A stretch of DNA of 32,993 nt from a bacterium. GTDB taxonomy: Bacteria > Desulfobacterota > Deferrisomatia > Deferrisomatales > Deferrisomataceae. The stretch lies in NCBI GenBank assembly GCA_027021615.1, contig JALUTY010000073.1, positions 1 to 32,993 of the forward strand. Reading direction: 5' to 3'. The position numbers were made by a program, and so were the translations under genes. Position 1 is the first letter of the stretch, and every line of letters starts with the position of its first letter. The notes below the pieces were generated by a model. That model searched no databases and was not told where the DNA came from. It worked only from the letters and a program-made list of their open reading frames with translations. Shown here one piece after another: positions 19,671-27,791 of this stretch.

Positions 19671-21011
19671 ATGAAACCAGTCGTGATCGCGTTGGGCGTC
19701 GGGCTGACCGCCTGTCTGGGCGCCGGCGGAGCCGGAGCGTGGACCCTTTCCGGCGCGTCCCGCACCACCCTGCGGGCCTCGTGGGCCGACGCCGCCCCCG
19801 ACCAGGACGACCAAGGGGCGTACGGCTCCCAGCTCCTGGTCCTGGAGGCGCAAGGCCTGCCCCTGAACAGCCGGGCCTTCTTCTCGGGCGCGTTCCGGTG
19901 GGACTTGGGCCAGGAGGAGCCGGACTCGGTGTTCTACAGCTCGGTGGACCGGTTTCCCGGCGGCAGTCACCTGTTCGTGTACGACCTGGGGCTCGTGTCC
20001 CGGCCCCTGCACGCCGTGGAGCTCACCGCCGGCCGGTTCTCGTGGGAGAGCGCCGAGCCCGTGCACCTGGACGGGGCCGGGGCCCGCGTGCGCCTGCCCC
20101 TGCTGCCGGTGGAGACGTCGGTGGAGGCCTTCGGCGGCCGCTTGGTGCAGTACTACGAGGATCTGGAGCGGGACGCCGCCTGGGGCGGGGCGGCCGAGGC
20201 CCGCCTTCCCTGGGGCGGCCGGCTTCGGGCCGACTACCTGGACTACTTCGACGATCTGCTGCGGCTGACCGTGCGGCAGACGCTCCGCGACCTCGCTTGG
20301 GCCAAGGCCAGCGCCGAGTGGGTGAACGGCAACCTGCGCGAGGCCCTGGTATCGGCCACCCTCTGGTGGGACCCCACCGGCACCGAGGTCGCGGCCAGCG
20401 TCTACAAGAAGGTGGGCAACGAGGAGGACGACGACTTCCTCCTGGACTTCACCGCGGACGCCGACCCCGGACGGTACCGGCTGGAGCGCCTCAGTCTGGA
20501 GCGACAGGCCCCCTATAACCAGTACCGGCTGGCCCTGGAGCAGCGGCTGGGGGACCACCTGACCCTGAGCGGCGCCTACACCAAGCGGGACCTGATCGAC
20601 GAGGACCACTACGAGAGCCCCTCGAACACCAGCTTCGACGTGGTCCAAGCCGGCCTCGGGGTGTTCGATCCGGGGATTCCGGGCCTCTCGCTGCGGGCCG
20701 GCCTGTCGTGGTGGCTCGAGGACCGGCTGGACGGCCCCGAGGCCCGGAGCCTCTCGTACTCGCTGGACGCCGAGCAGCGGCTGCCGCGCGGGTTCGTGGC
20801 CTCGGCCGCGTACTACCGCAAGGACGAGGACATCAACAACGACCTGGAGAACCTGGTGGCCCAGAGCCTGGAGCTGGGGCTCGCCTACCGACCCGGCTCG
20901 CGATGGTCGGCGGATCTGACCTACCGCCGGGACACCGACGACCTGATCGAGGAGCTCTACGGGGTCGAGGAGACCCACTCGGTAGAGACCCGCGTCACGG
21001 TGCGTTTCTAG
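19671..21011 (+). CDS. Outer-membrane beta-barrel, porin component of a porin-cytochrome conduit
   Basis: This 446-residue exported protein is probably the barrel that holds a multiheme cytochrome across the outer membrane. A signal peptide (about residues 1-23) ends GGAGA before Trp24; an LTAC sequence at residues 12-15 resembles a lipobox but sits inside the hydrophobic core, so I favour ordinary cleavage. The mature chain alternates aromatic and polar residues in many short strands with Asp/Glu/Arg-rich turns (for example YLDYFDDLLRLTVRQTLRD), and ends in VTVRF with the C-terminal Phe typical of barrels. The ATG at 19671 follows TGAGGA. No sequence family is recognised with certainty; the role rests on the fold pattern and the two cytochrome genes directly after it. 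Confidence 0.82.
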   Translation: MKPVVIALGVGLTACLGAGGAGAWTLSGASRTTLRASWADAAPDQDDQGAYGSQLLVLEAQGLPLNSRAFFSGAFRWDLGQEEPDSVFYSSVDRFPGGSHLFVYDLGLVSRPLHAVELTAGRFSWESAEPVHLDGAGARVRLPLLPVETSVEAFGGRLVQYYEDLERDAAWGGAAEARLPWGGRLRADYLDYFDDLLRLTVRQTLRDLAWAKASAEWVNGNLREALVSATLWWDPTGTEVAASVYKKVGNEEDDDFLLDFTADADPGRYRLERLSLERQAPYNQYRLALEQRLGDHLTLSGAYTKRDLIDEDHYESPSNTSFDVVQAGLGVFDPGIPGLSLRAGLSWWLEDRLDGPEARSLSYSLDAEQRLPRGFVASAAYYRKDEDINNDLENLVAQSLELGLAYRPGSRWSADLTYRRDTDDLIEELYGVEETHSVETRVTVRF

Positions 21012-21020
21012 GGGATGACC

Positions 21021-21995
21021 ATGAAGCTACTCAGCCGGCAATCGAATGGGCGCACTCACCTCCCCGAGCGGGGGGGCAAGGGACCTAGCGGAGAGCCGGG
21101 CGCGGCCCCCTGGCTCGCCGGGTTCGGTGCTGGGGGAATAAGACGGGCTTGCATCGCGGTGTTGGCGACTGGCGCGGCGCTAGCGCTGCTGGCCGGGTGC
21201 CGGGAGGAGACCGGCCTTCGATTCTCCCACGCCCTCCATGCGGAGGAGGCAGCCTGCACCGACTGCCACGGGGGTGACGAGGGGCTTCGAACCGGCATGG
21301 AGCCCTGCAAGGAGTGCCACGACATCGACGAGGCGAACCCCTCCGAGGCGTGCCTCACGTGCCACACCCGCGCCGGCGACGAGGACTACGCCGTGTCGAA
21401 GGCCCCACGGGGCCGAACGTACGCCGACGTGACGTTCGACCACGAGCCCCACGCCGACGTGGGCTGCGTCCGGTGCCACGGATCCACCCCGCGGGCCGAG
21501 AACCTGGCCTCGGTGGAGTTTCCCACGATGGAGACGTGTCTGGGGTGCCACGACGGGGACGAGGCGCCGGCCGACTGCTCCACCTGCCACGCCCGCATCC
21601 GTCGGGGCGAACGCCCCCCCTCCCACGACGGACTGTGGGAACAGCGCCACGGCCGGCGCACGGACCTGCGCGAGGCCGTGTGCCGGACCTGTCACCCCGG
21701 GCCGGACGCCTGCCGTACCTGCCACCGAACGGAGAAGCCCCGGAGCCACACCCTGGGCTGGAAGGACCGCAGCCACGGCCTGGAGGCCCGCCACGACCGC
21801 GACACCTGCCGCGCGTGCCACACGGCCACCTTCTGCTCCGACTGCCACCGGGAGGCCCCCCGCAGCCACGCCCCCCGGAACGGTTGGCTCGCCTCGGGGC
21901 ATCGGATCCAGGGGGCTGCGGACACGGAGTCGTGCCGGGTCTGCCACGGCCGGACCGACCCCTCGTGCCTGGCGTGCCATCCGCAAGGGTATTGA
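21021..21995 (+). CDS. Dodecaheme c-type cytochrome, lipoprotein
   Basis: This 324-residue protein contains twelve CXXCH haem c motifs in about 265 mature residues, or one per 22 residues, so it should be a packed haem wire. They read, in order: CTDCH, CKECH, CLTCH, CVRCH, CLGCH, CSTCH, CRTCH, CRTCH, CRACH, CSDCH, CRVCH, CLACH. Many extra His residues are available as distal ligands. A hydrophobic stretch ends in the lipobox LLAGC (Cys60); the 40 residues before it are an unusually long N-region. The ATG at 21021 has AGGGG six bases upstream; one at 21015 would add two residues. It lies 9 bases after the barrel gene, and its likely role is to sit in the barrel and pass electrons between periplasmic carriers and the cell surface. 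Confidence 0.93.
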   Translation: MKLLSRQSNGRTHLPERGGKGPSGEPGAAPWLAGFGAGGIRRACIAVLATGAALALLAGCREETGLRFSHALHAEEAACTDCHGGDEGLRTGMEPCKECHDIDEANPSEACLTCHTRAGDEDYAVSKAPRGRTYADVTFDHEPHADVGCVRCHGSTPRAENLASVEFPTMETCLGCHDGDEAPADCSTCHARIRRGERPPSHDGLWEQRHGRRTDLREAVCRTCHPGPDACRTCHRTEKPRSHTLGWKDRSHGLEARHDRDTCRACHTATFCSDCHREAPRSHAPRNGWLASGHRIQGAADTESCRVCHGRTDPSCLACHPQGY

Positions 21996-22034
21996 AACCG
22001 GGCCCGGCAAAACCCAATCCCACGGAGAGGAACC

Positions 22035-25000
22035 ATGAGAAAGATCCCGACCCTCCTCACCTCGTTGGCGCTGCCCGGCCTGCTGGCCGCGGCCGCGCCG
22101 GCGCTGGCCCATCCGGCCATCGAGATCCGCACCTTTGCGGACGCCGACCACGACGGCGTGGGCGATCCGGTGCGGACCGGCCTGGACGCAAGCGACACCC
22201 TGGCCGCCAACGGCCAGGACGGCGCCCTGGTGGCCGGACCGCCGATGAGCCCCAAGCAGACCTGCGGGCTGTGCCACTCGTACGAGAAGATCACCTCGGC
22301 CTACCACTTTCAGCTCGGGCTGGACGAGCGGGTGGACTCGGACGGCGACGGCTTCGCCGACGACCTGGGCAAGGTGCTGGCCGGGCCGGACGGGCTCCTG
22401 GCCACCCTGCCCACGCTGTACAACATCACGGCGCCCGGCCAGTTCGGGGCCTGGTGACCGCCCTCGTACCGCCAGTTGGCGGCACAGAACAACACGGATC
22501 ACACCCGGTTCGACATCGGTACGGCCGACGAGATCGCCACCTGCACCTCGTGCCACATGGGCGGCGGCCCCTACGAAGCGGACCGGTTCGGCAACCGGTA
22601 CGACGAGTTCTTCCAGGCCAACCGCGACCGGATCGAGGCCGGTGAGTTCGGCGTCCTGAACGGGGACTACTACCGGTACGACGTGGAGGACATCGGAGCG
22701 GCGCCGTTCTACATGGCCCGGGACCTCATGGGCGGCGGGCCCTCCCCGGCCCTGTCGGCCCCCCACCTGCACGACTGGGGCGAGAGCGGGGTGCTGGAGG
22801 CCGAGTGCCTGACCTGCCACCTCGATCCCTACGAGAACCGCCTCCACACCGCCGACGGGGTGGACGCCCAGAACTACGCGCCCCGGCTCAAGATCTTCCT
22901 GACCGCCAGGATGAACGAAGCCCGGGACGACTACGCCGACATCTGGACCATCTCGGTGGGGAGGTACCCCACCCCGGGCGAGATCCCCGAGGGATACGAG
23001 GTGTTCTCGATCGACCGGTACTCGAGCCCCCTCTCCGGCACCTTCGAGGCCGGCCGGTTCTACGCGGCGCCCAACTCGCCCGTGGCGAGCACCCGCGACT
23101 CGGTCAAGATCCCCATGGTCGAGGGCGGCAAGCCCGACGAGGCCGGCGGCACGAGCGGGTTCAAGATGCACAACGCCTACAGCCCGGCCGTGAACGCCGT
23201 GACCGCCGCGAACGGCGACAAGGTGTGGGGCAGCCGCAAGTTCCTGGGCTACTACTTCAAGTACGCGGCCACGGGCGGGCTCATGGGGCTCGACCTGGAC
23301 GGCGACGGCGTGCCCCTGGCCTACGTGAAGCTGGTGAAAAAAGACGGGGTGAGCCTCTCCCAGGTCCCGGACGAGGTGCAGAATTACTTTACGGTGCAGA
23401 CCTACTACGACCCGGACGATCTCGAGCTCTTCGCCGCCCAGTCCGGCACCAAAGCCCCCCTGCTCGCCAGCGACGACACCGGCGGCCACAAGTGGGACCT
23501 GATCTGCGGCCGGTGCCACGTGGGCTTCCGCGACCCCGTGAACCAGGGGCTGTACATCCGGCCCGACGTGATGGGCATGAAGGCCGACATCCCCAAGCGG
23601 GGCACCTTCTGGAAGATGGAGTACGACGGCGAGGAGAACTACGACAAGGCCCTGGAGGAGGTCGAGGCCGGAAGGAAGAGCGAGGGAGACCTGGCCGGCT
23701 ACGACGTGCACGCCGCCCGGGGCGTGGAGTGCGTGGACTGTCACGCCACCAAGGCCGAGGGGCCGACCGCGCCCGACCACGACTTCGGCAAGGGCATCGA
23801 CACCGGCGGCACCGTGCGAAACGACCTGGACTTCCAGAAGGTGAAGGTGTGCACCGACTGTCACAACCCGGACCAGATGACCCTGGCCCACCGGGACAGC
23901 TTCGGGTCCGAGGAGATCGTGGCGGACCACTTCGAGAACGTGGCCTGCGAGACCTGCCACATCCCCTACAAGAGGTACTGGCCGTTCCGGGCCTTCGACT
24001 ACTCCATGGGGTTCTCCTACAACTTCGACTCCCGGTTCATGCCGAACCCGGCCGACCCGGGAGACATCTCCCAGATGGTGCCGTTCTCGTTCTTCGCCGC
24101 GTTCGGCATCCAGGACCCCCAGCCGGGCTACTACGCGGCCGCCCCATTCTACGGGATCGGGGGGCTCCAGTGGGTCGGCCAGTCGAACCCGATCTTCGGG
24201 ATGGACGTGGTGACCTCCATCGCCTACTTCGACCCCAACGGGCCCGACCCGCTGGTGGCCCAGAAGCTCGCGCTGGACGGCAAGGAGCCCGGGTTCGGCT
24301 CGGACCGGGCCCTCGACCCCTACGCCATGTTCTACACCATGATGACCGACCCGGACGGCTCGGCCACGATCCCCGTGCCCGACGACGAGGGGAACTTCGA
24401 CCCGGCGGACATGACGGAGTTCTTCCGCACCGCCAACGGAAAGAGCTACTTCGAGTTCACCCCGGTGCTCTACAAGAAGCCCGACCGGGACGGCAAGATC
24501 AAGATCTACCCGGGCAACCCCGTGGCGGCCGTGACCTGGGTGGTCTACGACCCCGACGACCCGGCCAGCATGCGGGTGCTGGCCCCCCGGGAGCTCAACT
24601 CCATCCTGGCCGGCGCGGTGTCCCGGGAGGTGATGCCCGGCCGCCACCAGATCGGCATGGTGCTGATCTCGAGCACCGTCACCCGGGACGAGTCCGGCGC
24701 GATCACCGCGTACGACCCGGCCACGATCGTATGGGACGACAACTTCGACCTGCGGCCCGAGATCTCCAACGAGACCGAGCTGGACCTGGTGAAGGCGGCC
24801 TTGAAGACGGTGCTGGAGAAGGAGGACGCCTACGCGGGCGTGACCTCGCCCGACTACGGCGCGAACCTGCGGCTCGCGATCGTGGCCCACTACTTCACCG
24901 TGAGCCACAACGTGCTGCCCGCCTCCCAGGCCCTGGGGGCGCCCAAGGACTACGACAAACTGGGCGGGGTGGACCCGACCACCGGGAAGATGGTCCCCCC

Positions 25001-25496
25001 GCCGGGGGTGGTGGAGGCCGGCAAGACCCGCCAGTGCGTGGACTGCCACGCCCAGGGCACCGATCCGGTCTACGGCGGCGACCCGGACGTGGTCCTGAAC
25101 GCCCGGCTGTCGAACCGCACGGTCACCTTCCTGCCCTGGACCATCGAGAACTTCGAAGGGCTCGTGGCCAAGGGCAAGATCTGGGTCGAGCCCGAGGTGG
25201 GCTACATCCACCCCGTGGACGTGAACCGCGACGGCGACACCGACGACGTGGCGCCCGACTTCTCCACGGTGGAGACCACCGGCACGGTGACCCCGGCCGA
25301 CCTGATCGGCGCCACCCAGGCCGAGATCCTGGAGCACACCGAGGAGGCGGCCCGGGCGTTCGCCAAGCTGGCCGGCCTCACCCCGGTGGAGCCCGGGGAG
25401 GAGCCCGTGACCGCGGAGGAGCCGGCCCCCACCCCGGAAAGCGGGGACGGCAGTGGCTCCACCGGCTGCTTCCTCCAGACCCTGTCCCGACCCTGA
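22035..25496 (+). CDS. Large octaheme cytochrome with in-frame TGA (probable selenoprotein)
   Basis: Read through a TGA at 22455-22457, the frame encodes 1153 residues: a signal peptide (1-25, ending ALA), then eight CXXCH motifs at residues 77 (CGLCH), 170, 258, 491, 566, 606, 638 and 1001. The TGA is codon 141, in the context GQFGAW-U-PPSYRQLAAQ. The part after it stays in frame to 25496 but has no ribosome site, no ATG nearby and no signal peptide, so it is not a separate gene. A SECIS-like hairpin starts at the TGA. Several Asp-rich loops (DADHDGVGD, DSDGDGFADD, DLDGDG, DVNRDGDTDD) look like calcium sites. The C-terminus is an acidic, Pro/Gly/Ser linker and then GSTGCFLQTLSRP. It follows the 12-haem gene by 39 bases with GAGAGG before the ATG, and a terminator closes the unit. 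Probably a cell-surface oxidoreductase; the substrate is unknown. A nonsense mutation or a base error is the alternative. Confidence 0.85.
22455..22501 (+). promoter_or_regulatory. Bacterial SECIS-like hairpin at the in-frame TGA
   Basis: The TGA (22455-22457) forms the base of a predicted fold: TGACCG (22455-22460) pairs with CGG-A-TCA (22495-22501, one bulged A). Inside, GT (22466-22467) pairs with AC (22484-22485), and CCGCC (22469-22473) pairs with GGCGG (22478-22482) around the loop AGTT. The loop begins 16 bases after the TGA and has G in its second position. As I recall the bacterial SECIS model, it asks for a short upper stem, 16-37 bases from UGA to the loop and a G among the first loop bases, so all three are met. 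SelB binding is inferred, not shown. Confidence 0.6.
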
Positions 25497-25520: not shown

Positions 25521-25558
25521 GCCCCGGGCGGGCTCCTCCTCCCCCCGGGGCTTTTTTT
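25521..25558 (+). terminator. Intrinsic terminator of the porin-cytochrome operon
   Basis: GCCCCGGG (25521-25528) pairs perfectly with CCCGGGGC (25544-25551), and seven T follow at 25552-25558. It lies 25 bases after the cytochrome stop codon and separates this operon from the regulator gene. Confidence 0.92.
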
Positions 25559-25601
25559 GTCGCTGGGTCAAGCCTTGCGCCCGGTGACGTCTCACTCGAG
25601 G

Positions 25602-25629
25602 TTGCCACCGCCCCATCTCGATGTAAAAT
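25602..25629 (+). promoter_or_regulatory. Sigma70-like promoter of the BTAD regulator gene
   Basis: TTGCCA (25602-25607) and TAAAAT (25624-25629), each matching 5 of 6 consensus positions, are separated by 16 bases. The predicted start near 25636 leaves a leader of about 38 bases before the GTG at 25674. Its position after the terminator shows the regulator is transcribed independently of the cytochrome operon. Confidence 0.6.
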
Positions 25630-25673
25630 ATGGTTTGTTTTTACGCAAAGCCGTCGGGACCAGGAGGCGGGAG

Positions 25674-27791
25674 GTGGAGACTCGGGATCTCCTCCCCGAG
25701 CTCGGAGAGCTGGCTCAAAAGAACCAATGGGACGCGTTCGCCGCCAGGCTGGCCGAACAGGGGCTGGCGTGGTGGTTCGAGATGGACGTTCCTGCCATCC
25801 GCCGGCATTTCGAGGTGCTCCGGTCCCACCGGCATTCCGGCCTGTCCCCCCGGCTTCGGCTCCTGGAAGGGACCGTTGCGCCACTGCCCACCGACCGGGA
25901 GCCGCGGAAGGTGATGCAGGACATCTCCTTGCTGTACCGGCTGTTCCAGGTGAACCGAGATCCAGAGGGAGCCGCGGCCGCATGTGGGCTCGCGGTGGCC
26001 GCCCTGTGGGACTTCGGGGTGGAATGGTCCCGATCCCGGGCATGGGCCGACCGGATCGACCGGCTCGTCGAACAAGCGAAACTCCCCCCTTTGGCCCGTG
26101 CCTCTGCACTGGCGTTCCGCGCCTTGATGCTCCTGTTCCACCGGGGGGACCCCCACCGAACGCTGGACACGCTGGATCACCAGCGCCGGGCCGCAGAGGA
26201 GGCTCGCTCCTCTTCCATGGTCCTCTACGGCGCCACCCTCCAAGCCATGGCGCTGGCATACCAGGGGTGCACGGAGCGGGCGGTGCTCGTGCTGGAGGAG
26301 ACCGAGCCGTTCGTGGATCGGACCTCTCCCACCTCGTACACGCGCCTGTACCATCGGATCATGCAGGGCATCGTGCTGTGCACGGCCGGCAGGCCGGCCG
26401 AGGCCTACGAGGTGCTCCGGGGCACGGGCGAAGACCTTCTTCCGGAGGACCGGAGGGTCTCGGTCAGACTCCTGCTCCAAGGAACTCGGCTCCTGGCGGC
26501 ATCCCTGGCCCGCCACGCCGACGAGGTCCCCCTGCTGGAGGCCAGCGTCAAACACCTGGCGGTGGGGGAGCAGGTCCACTTCTTCTCGTCGCTCATGCAC
26601 TTTTCGGTGGGCCTGTTCTACCTGGGGGCCGGCCGCCCCTATCGGACACTGGCCCATGCGGAGCGAGCAGAGCGGGCGGCGCTCCGGGCCGAGAGCTCAC
26701 CGGCCGAGGAAATGAGCCGGATCCTCCAAGCCTTGGCTTTGGCCGACCTCAATGAGAACGAGGAGGCAGGAGCCCGGCTCGACGAAGCGATCCAAAGGTG
26801 TCGGGAGCGGGGGCTCTTTCTGTTCTCCGAGGGGGCGAGCCTGGATCGGGCTGCCCTGCTGGTGCACCGTGGAGAGAACGAGGAGGCCAGGCGGTTGCTC
26901 GACCAGGCGCGGGAGCTGCTTCCGCCCGGGCGCCCCCTTCTTTCGGCCTTTCGGCCGCCCGAGTTCACCCGCCGTCTCCTGGAGCGACTGGAGGCCCGCA
27001 CCGACACTCCGGCTTCCGTGCAGGGGCTTCTCGAGGCAGCCGAGGAGCGGCCGGTGCGGATCCAGAGCTTGGGCGGGTTCTCCCTCACCATGCTCGGGAC
27101 CATCGTGTACGACCGGCGCTGGCGCTCCTCCCGCACCCAGCAGCTGTTGAAGCTCCTCCTCGCCTTTGGGGGGGAAAAGGTCCCCGTGGATTGGCTGACC
27201 GAGCTGCTGTGGCCGGACGCCCTCGGCGACCAGGCCCGGGCCAATCTCAAGACCACCTTGGCCCGGCTTCGGCAGGTGGGCACCAAAGGGAGCGAGCCCG
27301 TGCGATGGATCCACTGGAAGCACGGACGGCTGTCCCTTTCCCGCTCGACCGTGTTCGCCGACTCGCTCGTTTTCGAAAGGGCCGGAAGGTCGGCCCTCCG
27401 AAGCCGTTCGCCCCGAGAGGTCGCCCGGGCGCTGGAACTCTACTGCGGGGACTTCCTCCCCGGGGACGACTCGTACGGGATCGTGGAGAACCGCCGGGAA
27501 ACCCTCAGGCACCTCCACGTATCCCTCGTGGAGTGGCTGGTGGAGCTGGCCGGTCACCATCTCCCCGAGAGTTCCCTGCTGGACCACCTCTCCCTGGCCG
27601 TAACCGCCAACCCCTCGTCGGAGCGGCTGTACGCCATCAAGATGGAGCAACTGATCCGCCAGGGCTATCCCATGGAAGCCCTCCGAACCTTCCGACAGGC
27701 AGAGGCGTTCTTCCGCGATACGTTCGGCTCGCCCCCCGGCCCGGTGCTTCGCAGACTGGCCGTCCGGGCGCGGGAGGGCACTCCCGGCTGA
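25674..27791 (+). CDS. TPR plus BTAD (SARP-like) transcriptional regulator
   Basis: This soluble protein has about 705 residues. Residues 1 to about 450 are helical repeats rich in Ala/Leu/Arg, resembling the TPR region of MalT/AfsR-type regulators (for example ERAERAALRAESSPAEEMSR). From about 460 a winged-helix domain begins, SLGGFSLTMLG, with SSRTQQLLKLLLAFGGEKVP and LTELLWPDALGDQARANLK, the hallmark of OmpR-like domains in SARP proteins. The bacterial transcriptional activation domain follows (about 570-700: ELYCGDFLPGDD, ERLYAIKMEQLIRQGYPMEALRTF). There is no P-loop ATPase and no receiver. GTG at 25674 was chosen because AGGAGG sits six bases upstream and a promoter lies just before; an earlier TTG at 25557 falls inside the terminator. 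The barrel, lipoprotein and giant-protein genes directly downstream are likely targets. Confidence 0.85.
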   Translation: METRDLLPELGELAQKNQWDAFAARLAEQGLAWWFEMDVPAIRRHFEVLRSHRHSGLSPRLRLLEGTVAPLPTDREPRKVMQDISLLYRLFQVNRDPEGAAAACGLAVAALWDFGVEWSRSRAWADRIDRLVEQAKLPPLARASALAFRALMLLFHRGDPHRTLDTLDHQRRAAEEARSSSMVLYGATLQAMALAYQGCTERAVLVLEETEPFVDRTSPTSYTRLYHRIMQGIVLCTAGRPAEAYEVLRGTGEDLLPEDRRVSVRLLLQGTRLLAASLARHADEVPLLEASVKHLAVGEQVHFFSSLMHFSVGLFYLGAGRPYRTLAHAERAERAALRAESSPAEEMSRILQALALADLNENEEAGARLDEAIQRCRERGLFLFSEGASLDRAALLVHRGENEEARRLLDQARELLPPGRPLLSAFRPPEFTRRLLERLEARTDTPASVQGLLEAAEERPVRIQSLGGFSLTMLGTIVYDRRWRSSRTQQLLKLLLAFGGEKVPVDWLTELLWPDALGDQARANLKTTLARLRQVGTKGSEPVRWIHWKHGRLSLSRSTVFADSLVFERAGRSALRSRSPREVARALELYCGDFLPGDDSYGIVENRRETLRHLHVSLVEWLVELAGHHLPESSLLDHLSLAVTANPSSERLYAIKMEQLIRQGYPMEALRTFRQAEAFFRDTFGSPPGPVLRRLAVRAREGTPG

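Follow-up and report, generated by a model that had tools for sequence, protein, structure and literature searches.

An in-frame TGA, best explained as a selenocysteine codon, in the gene for an octahaem c-type cytochrome remotely related to octahaem tetrathionate reductase

A gene for a large c-type cytochrome from a member of the Deferrisomataceae (Desulfobacterota) is interrupted by a single TGA codon, raising the question of whether this codon is a fault, a stop, or a codon that is read through and, if so, as what. The window, i.e. the whole stretch of DNA that was analysed, comprises 32 993 nt (positions 1–32 993 of the forward strand of contig JALUTY010000073.1, assembly GCA_027021615.1). 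The gene lies on the forward strand at 22035–25496 and runs from an ATG at 22035 through 140 codons to the TGA (codon 141, 22455–22457), after which the frame stays open for another 1012 codons to a TGA stop whose last base is 25496; inspection of the frame found no internal stop and no frame change beyond TGA141, and reading through this codon gives a product of 1153 residues with selenocysteine (Sec) at position 141. A Shine-Dalgarno-like GGAGAGG (22024–22030, forward strand) precedes the ATG, and the product has a signal peptide (MRKIPTLLTSLALPGLLAAAAPALAHP) and eight CXXCH motifs at residues 77, 170, 258, 491, 566, 606, 638 and 1001, of which the first (CGLCH, 22263–22277) is encoded 5′ of the TGA and the other seven 3′ of it. 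The first possible start for the downstream piece is a TTG at 22476, which lies inside the hairpin described below and has no ribosome-binding site. The initial annotation had thus described the layout correctly, namely a signal peptide and first haem motif before a single TGA, 1012 codons in the same frame with seven more CXXCH motifs after it, no other frame change, and a downstream part lacking start signals of its own. Its placing of a selenol beside haem 1 needs one refinement: the site falls between haem motifs 1 and 2, 64 residues from the former and 29 from the latter. An antisense ORF of 1478 aa overlaps the gene and, because long open frames are common in such GC-rich DNA, frame length alone is no proof; the case for the octahaem cytochrome rests on comparison and conservation instead.

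A scan of genomes gave three loci of the octahaem cytochrome, and a class-wide search found it in seven genomes including the source genome, with exactly one TGA in each match. The six orthologues that were aligned (62–97 % identical) all have the TGA at the same site, directly after G-[AG]-W. One TGA-bearing orthologue is in a genome assembled as a single contig of 4.24 Mb and, as the same TGA is present in independent assemblies such as this one, it is not a read error. Substitutions 3′ of the TGA favour third codon positions (for example, 22, 19 and 61 at positions 1, 2 and 3, respectively, against L079), and the 1012 downstream codons are therefore under coding selection as part of one protein. 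Immediately after the TGA, seven of the eight degenerate codons among codons 142–149 are identical in all seven orthologues vs 31.5 % elsewhere (P=0.002). That TGA141 is a nonsense mutation or an assembly error in a pseudogene might be argued from the fact that TGA also serves as a stop in the source genome, including at the end of this very gene, but such a reading is scarcely credible when the same TGA recurs in independent genomes, the region 3′ of it is under purifying selection, and the site exchanges Sec with Cys and is accompanied by a SECIS element (see below). It was ruled out on the basis of conservation in independent genomes.

When 395 genomes of the phylum were searched with a profile covering haems 1–3, 86 had matches, many with exactly one TGA. 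The residue at the site could be aligned in 85 rows, with TGA in 62, Cys in 11, Ser in four, Gln and Leu in two each, and Phe, Trp, Gly and Val in one each; this count takes in duplicate loci, and the distinct sequences number 51 with TGA and 23 others. The motif G-x-x-G-x-[WFY] directly precedes the TGA in the 51 distinct TGA-containing sequences. A second group within the family is made up of 8-haem proteins of 720 residues and 16-haem proteins of about 1475 residues, in which the site reads G-x-x-G-K-W-TGA-P-P. Cys is the commonest residue in the sequences without TGA (11/23) and Trp is found once, so that Trp, Gly or Arg, which the initial annotation had named as residues that would speak against Sec, are not the norm. 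A maximum-likelihood tree of 40 rows shows two separate clades with Cys set among branches with TGA, and five changes of the TGA label. A site at which TGA and Cys replace each other is what usually marks out a selenoprotein family. As Ser, Leu or Gln occupy the site in some homologues, Sec or Cys is not indispensable throughout the family.

The TGA is followed by a SECIS apical hairpin (CCGCC-AGTT-GGCGG, 22469–22482, forward strand) with its loop 16 nt downstream. Each of the 51 distinct TGA sequences has an AGNY tetraloop, which lies exactly 16 nt downstream of the TGA in 42 and exactly 22 nt downstream in nine. Stem pair 1 is C-G in 51/51, and the stem covaries at pair 4 (CG in 46, AT in four, GC in one) and at pair 5 (CG in 33, TA in 12, GC in four, with two exceptions). 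Among the 23 homologues without TGA, only one (L126, G240:C144) has such a stem-loop at the matching place; its codon at the site is TCA, one base from TGA, and with the hairpin intact this looks like a recent loss of Sec to Ser. A SECIS-like hairpin or its remnant is likewise still there in L127 (G260:C84), which has TGG, and as in L126 the loss of selenocysteine was apparently recent. The Leu that follows Gln and supplies half of the loop is encoded by TTG in 44/44 TGA sequences vs 4/15 others (P=5e-9), and TTG is otherwise rare in the octahaem cytochrome gene (3/78 Leu codons).

All four genes for selenocysteine synthesis and insertion named for checking in the initial annotation were found in the source genome. 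In addition to selA and selB, there is a selC (Rfam tRNA-Sec, 72.6 bits; identified by ARAGORN as tRNA-SeC with anticodon tca) and a selD (L017, G000:C78:237566-238486), which has an in-frame TGA of its own, as do other Sec-containing SelD genes. The alternative that readthrough or a changed genetic code puts one of the standard residues, such as Trp, at TGA141 could draw on the Trp that precedes the TGA and on the homologues with neither Sec nor Cys, but is highly improbable given that the frame contains a single TGA, that genes here end in TGA, that Cys rather than Trp is the most frequent replacement and that the Sec machinery is complete. Hence, decoding of UGA141 as selenocysteine via the SECIS hairpin is well supported by comparative sequence data, and the octahaem cytochrome is almost certainly a selenoprotein, in agreement with the initial proposal, for which the TGA/Cys homologues, the sel genes, the covarying SECIS and the independent assemblies all speak. 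The early position of the UGA, after a complete one-haem N-terminal part, leads to the further idea of regulated recoding, whereby selenium-poor cells would make a short one-haem protein and selenium-supplied cells the full cytochrome. This appears unlikely, as nothing points to selection for the short product in itself, and premature termination is common to any selenoprotein mRNA and needs no special device.

For the type of cytochrome, searches of NCBIfam and Pfam gave only weak cytochrome matches, searches of PDB sequences only weak nitrite reductase matches, and a Foldseek search no match at E <= 0.001; the AlphaFold models (pLDDT 30 for the octahaem cytochrome and 50 for a compact relative) were too poor for placing haems. 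However, comparison of the family profile with that of octahaem tetrathionate reductase (OTR; TIGR04315) using hhalign gave a probability of 99.4 % (E 2.3e-21) over haems 4–8 and, on this profile evidence, the family is a remote OTR relative. Strict OTR membership was rejected because the score is far below the TIGR04315 cut-off of 375 bits (36.2 bits for the Sec cytochrome and 36–44 bits for the octahaem forms), and the source genome has no TIGR04315 match at E <= 1e-30.

Both groups have a D-x-x-K-[RH]-G motif after haem 4 that hhalign pairs, and Lys521 in the D-x-x-K-R of the present protein (23595–23597, forward strand) is thereby paired with OTR Lys153 (PDB 1sp3 numbering), the lysine that ligates the OTR catalytic haem. 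Lys521 is invariant in the first eleven sequences aligned and nearly invariant in the larger family alignment. The second haem of OTR is catalytic and Lys-ligated (PMC11024163). OTR proteins, which also have eight CXXCH motifs, invariably have Cys or Sec at one position between haems 1 and 2 (Cys64 in 1sp3), and many OTR relatives have TGA at exactly this position. Cys64 is reportedly part of the OTR active site, according to the 2004 structure paper. However, the N-terminal halves of the Sec family and OTR gave no significant or proper alignment in a global hhalign comparison, so that Sec141 and Cys64 are equated by the order of motifs along the chain. With this proviso, the OTR comparison points to a possible role for the selenol at catalytic haem 2, not haem 1. 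The two families differ around the site, with N-N-F-U in the Sec-containing OTR relatives and G-x-x-G-x-W-U-P-P in the present family, and the latter also has longer spacers and, in some members, a fused cytochrome b or second eight-haem unit. OTR-family (TIGR04315) proteins of this phylum (L160–L189) are themselves often selenoproteins, with TGA in place of the Cys64 codon (N-N-F-U).

Two further genes for potential partners lie directly upstream on the same strand. The first (about 19671–21011) encodes a probable outer-membrane beta-barrel, with a signal peptide at MKPVVIALG and a C-terminal Phe but no Pfam or NCBIfam match, and the second (21015–21995) a 12-haem c7-type cytochrome (Pfam PF14522 and PF02085; 12 CXXCH) with a lipobox-like LAGC. 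The 12-haem and barrel genes adjoin the Sec cytochrome gene in four other genomes, at identities down to 39 % and 54 %, respectively. The Geobacter porin-cytochrome conduits (PCC, ext) similarly combine a barrel, a periplasmic multihaem lipoprotein and a large multihaem cytochrome in one cluster, but here the barrel lacks a Pfam or NCBIfam match and the large cytochrome has Sec and OTR-like active-site features. The Sec cytochrome probably works in an outer-membrane porin-cytochrome module, the barrel and the location being those predicted from sequence. A gene for a large BTAD-domain regulator lies directly downstream (25557–27791) and is shared with the closest genomes only (L079, L084 and L021).

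Taken as a whole, the locus is best explained by a SECIS-decoded selenoprotein with an OTR-like Sec/haem 2 site that acts as a terminal reductase in an outer-membrane module. We give this explanation a probability of roughly 0.62, a compromise over all of its parts, among which the selenoprotein claim stands on by far the safest ground. SelB and tRNA-Sec would decode UGA141 through the hairpin 16 nt downstream to produce an exported octahaem c-type selenoprotein, in which haem 2 would be catalytic and, by homology with OTR, ligated by Lys521. Sec141, situated between haem motifs 1 and 2 like Cys64 of OTR, would line the active site and act there as a nucleophile or in redox chemistry, and haems 3–8 would wire this site to the partners. 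The barrel, the 12-haem lipoprotein and the Sec cytochrome would together form the porin-cytochrome module at the outer membrane, and the substrate would be a small or mineral-borne oxidised compound of the S-S, Se-oxyanion or N-oxyanion type.

Alternatively, the protein may be a genuine selenoprotein but a pure conduit, with Sec141 binding haem in a structural or protective role, or serving as a redox switch, and no catalysis at haem 2. MmcA (methano7heme, TIGR04314) offers a precedent, as this archaeal multihaem cytochrome of the OTR superfamily no longer has the catalytic haem with its Lys and serves as a conduit (PMC11024163); the location of the gene in a porin-cytochrome-like cluster and the occurrence of Ser, Leu and Gln forms would also fit. 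However, MmcA has seven haems and is without haem 2 and its Lys (PMC11024163), whereas the Sec cytochrome retains its eight CXXCH motifs and the counterpart of the Lys at the OTR catalytic haem. Moreover, some family members are fused C-terminally to a cytochrome b of the formate-dehydrogenase-gamma type, which suggests quinol-linked reductases as would be expected for enzymes. We therefore consider a pure conduit rather doubtful, and return to the terminal reductase. By analogy with OTR, it seems about as likely as not that Sec is located at a catalytic haem 2 of the OTR kind and participates in the reduction. Only tentatively can the family be proposed as a broad, uncatalogued group of selenoenzymes with a selenol beside a Lys-ligated c-type haem, set here on an outer-membrane conduit; if true, a selenol at such a haem would make respiratory reduction selenium-dependent.

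A known parallel is ExtKL (NF040886), encoded in the Geobacter extHIJKLMNOPQS cluster, the pieces of which were once annotated as separate genes, gsu2937-gsu2936 (PMC5877670). It too is a multihaem c-type cytochrome with one in-frame TGA and a porin gene nearby, but it has five haems and about 423 residues. In the ExtKL proteins that we recovered, the TGA comes after the fifth (last) haem, following A-x-H-x-x-P-D-[GS]. NF040886 gave no match to the Sec octahaem cytochrome, and identity with ExtKL was rejected because Sec is placed differently and the number of haems is not the same. The 119 prokaryotic selenoprotein families or subfamilies compiled in a 2026 review include ExtKL and TIGR04315, the Sec form of the latter being given as annotated in GenBank (PMC13188914); none of the 119 has the motif of the present family (PMC13188914). 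No model in NCBIfam release 20 claims the family, and a literature search, most subscription journals aside, found no paper naming a selenocysteine cytochrome of the octahaem G-x-x-G-x-W-U type. Hence, the family is apparently widespread and uncatalogued, though single members may already be flagged in GenBank.

Selenocysteine in multihaem cytochromes has barely been explored, ExtKL being the only well-discussed case that we found. The family is present in many genomes of the phylum, and its natural Sec, Cys and Ser/Leu forms are ready-made comparisons which, together with the retained OTR catalytic features, make it possible to test what a selenol contributes to a haem active site. Genes of this kind are split or cut short by standard annotation, so that counts of multihaem reductases in these genomes are wrong.

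Three further features of family members were noted. A cytochrome b fusion (L140, G028:C10, 3689–6382) lies just upstream of an ExtKL gene (G028:C10:66650-67840), placing two Sec cytochromes side by side. The 16-haem proteins L087 and L088 consist of the Sec octahaem unit followed by a second eight-haem unit that is closer to TIGR04315 (71 bits for L088). Finally, the cytochrome in the window ends with a C-terminal G-S-x-x-C-F motif (25430–25493) that is also conserved at the C-termini of L085–L088; in the 16-haem proteins it is followed by a hydrophobic segment and a basic tail, an arrangement that resembles a Cys-type C-terminal sorting signal.
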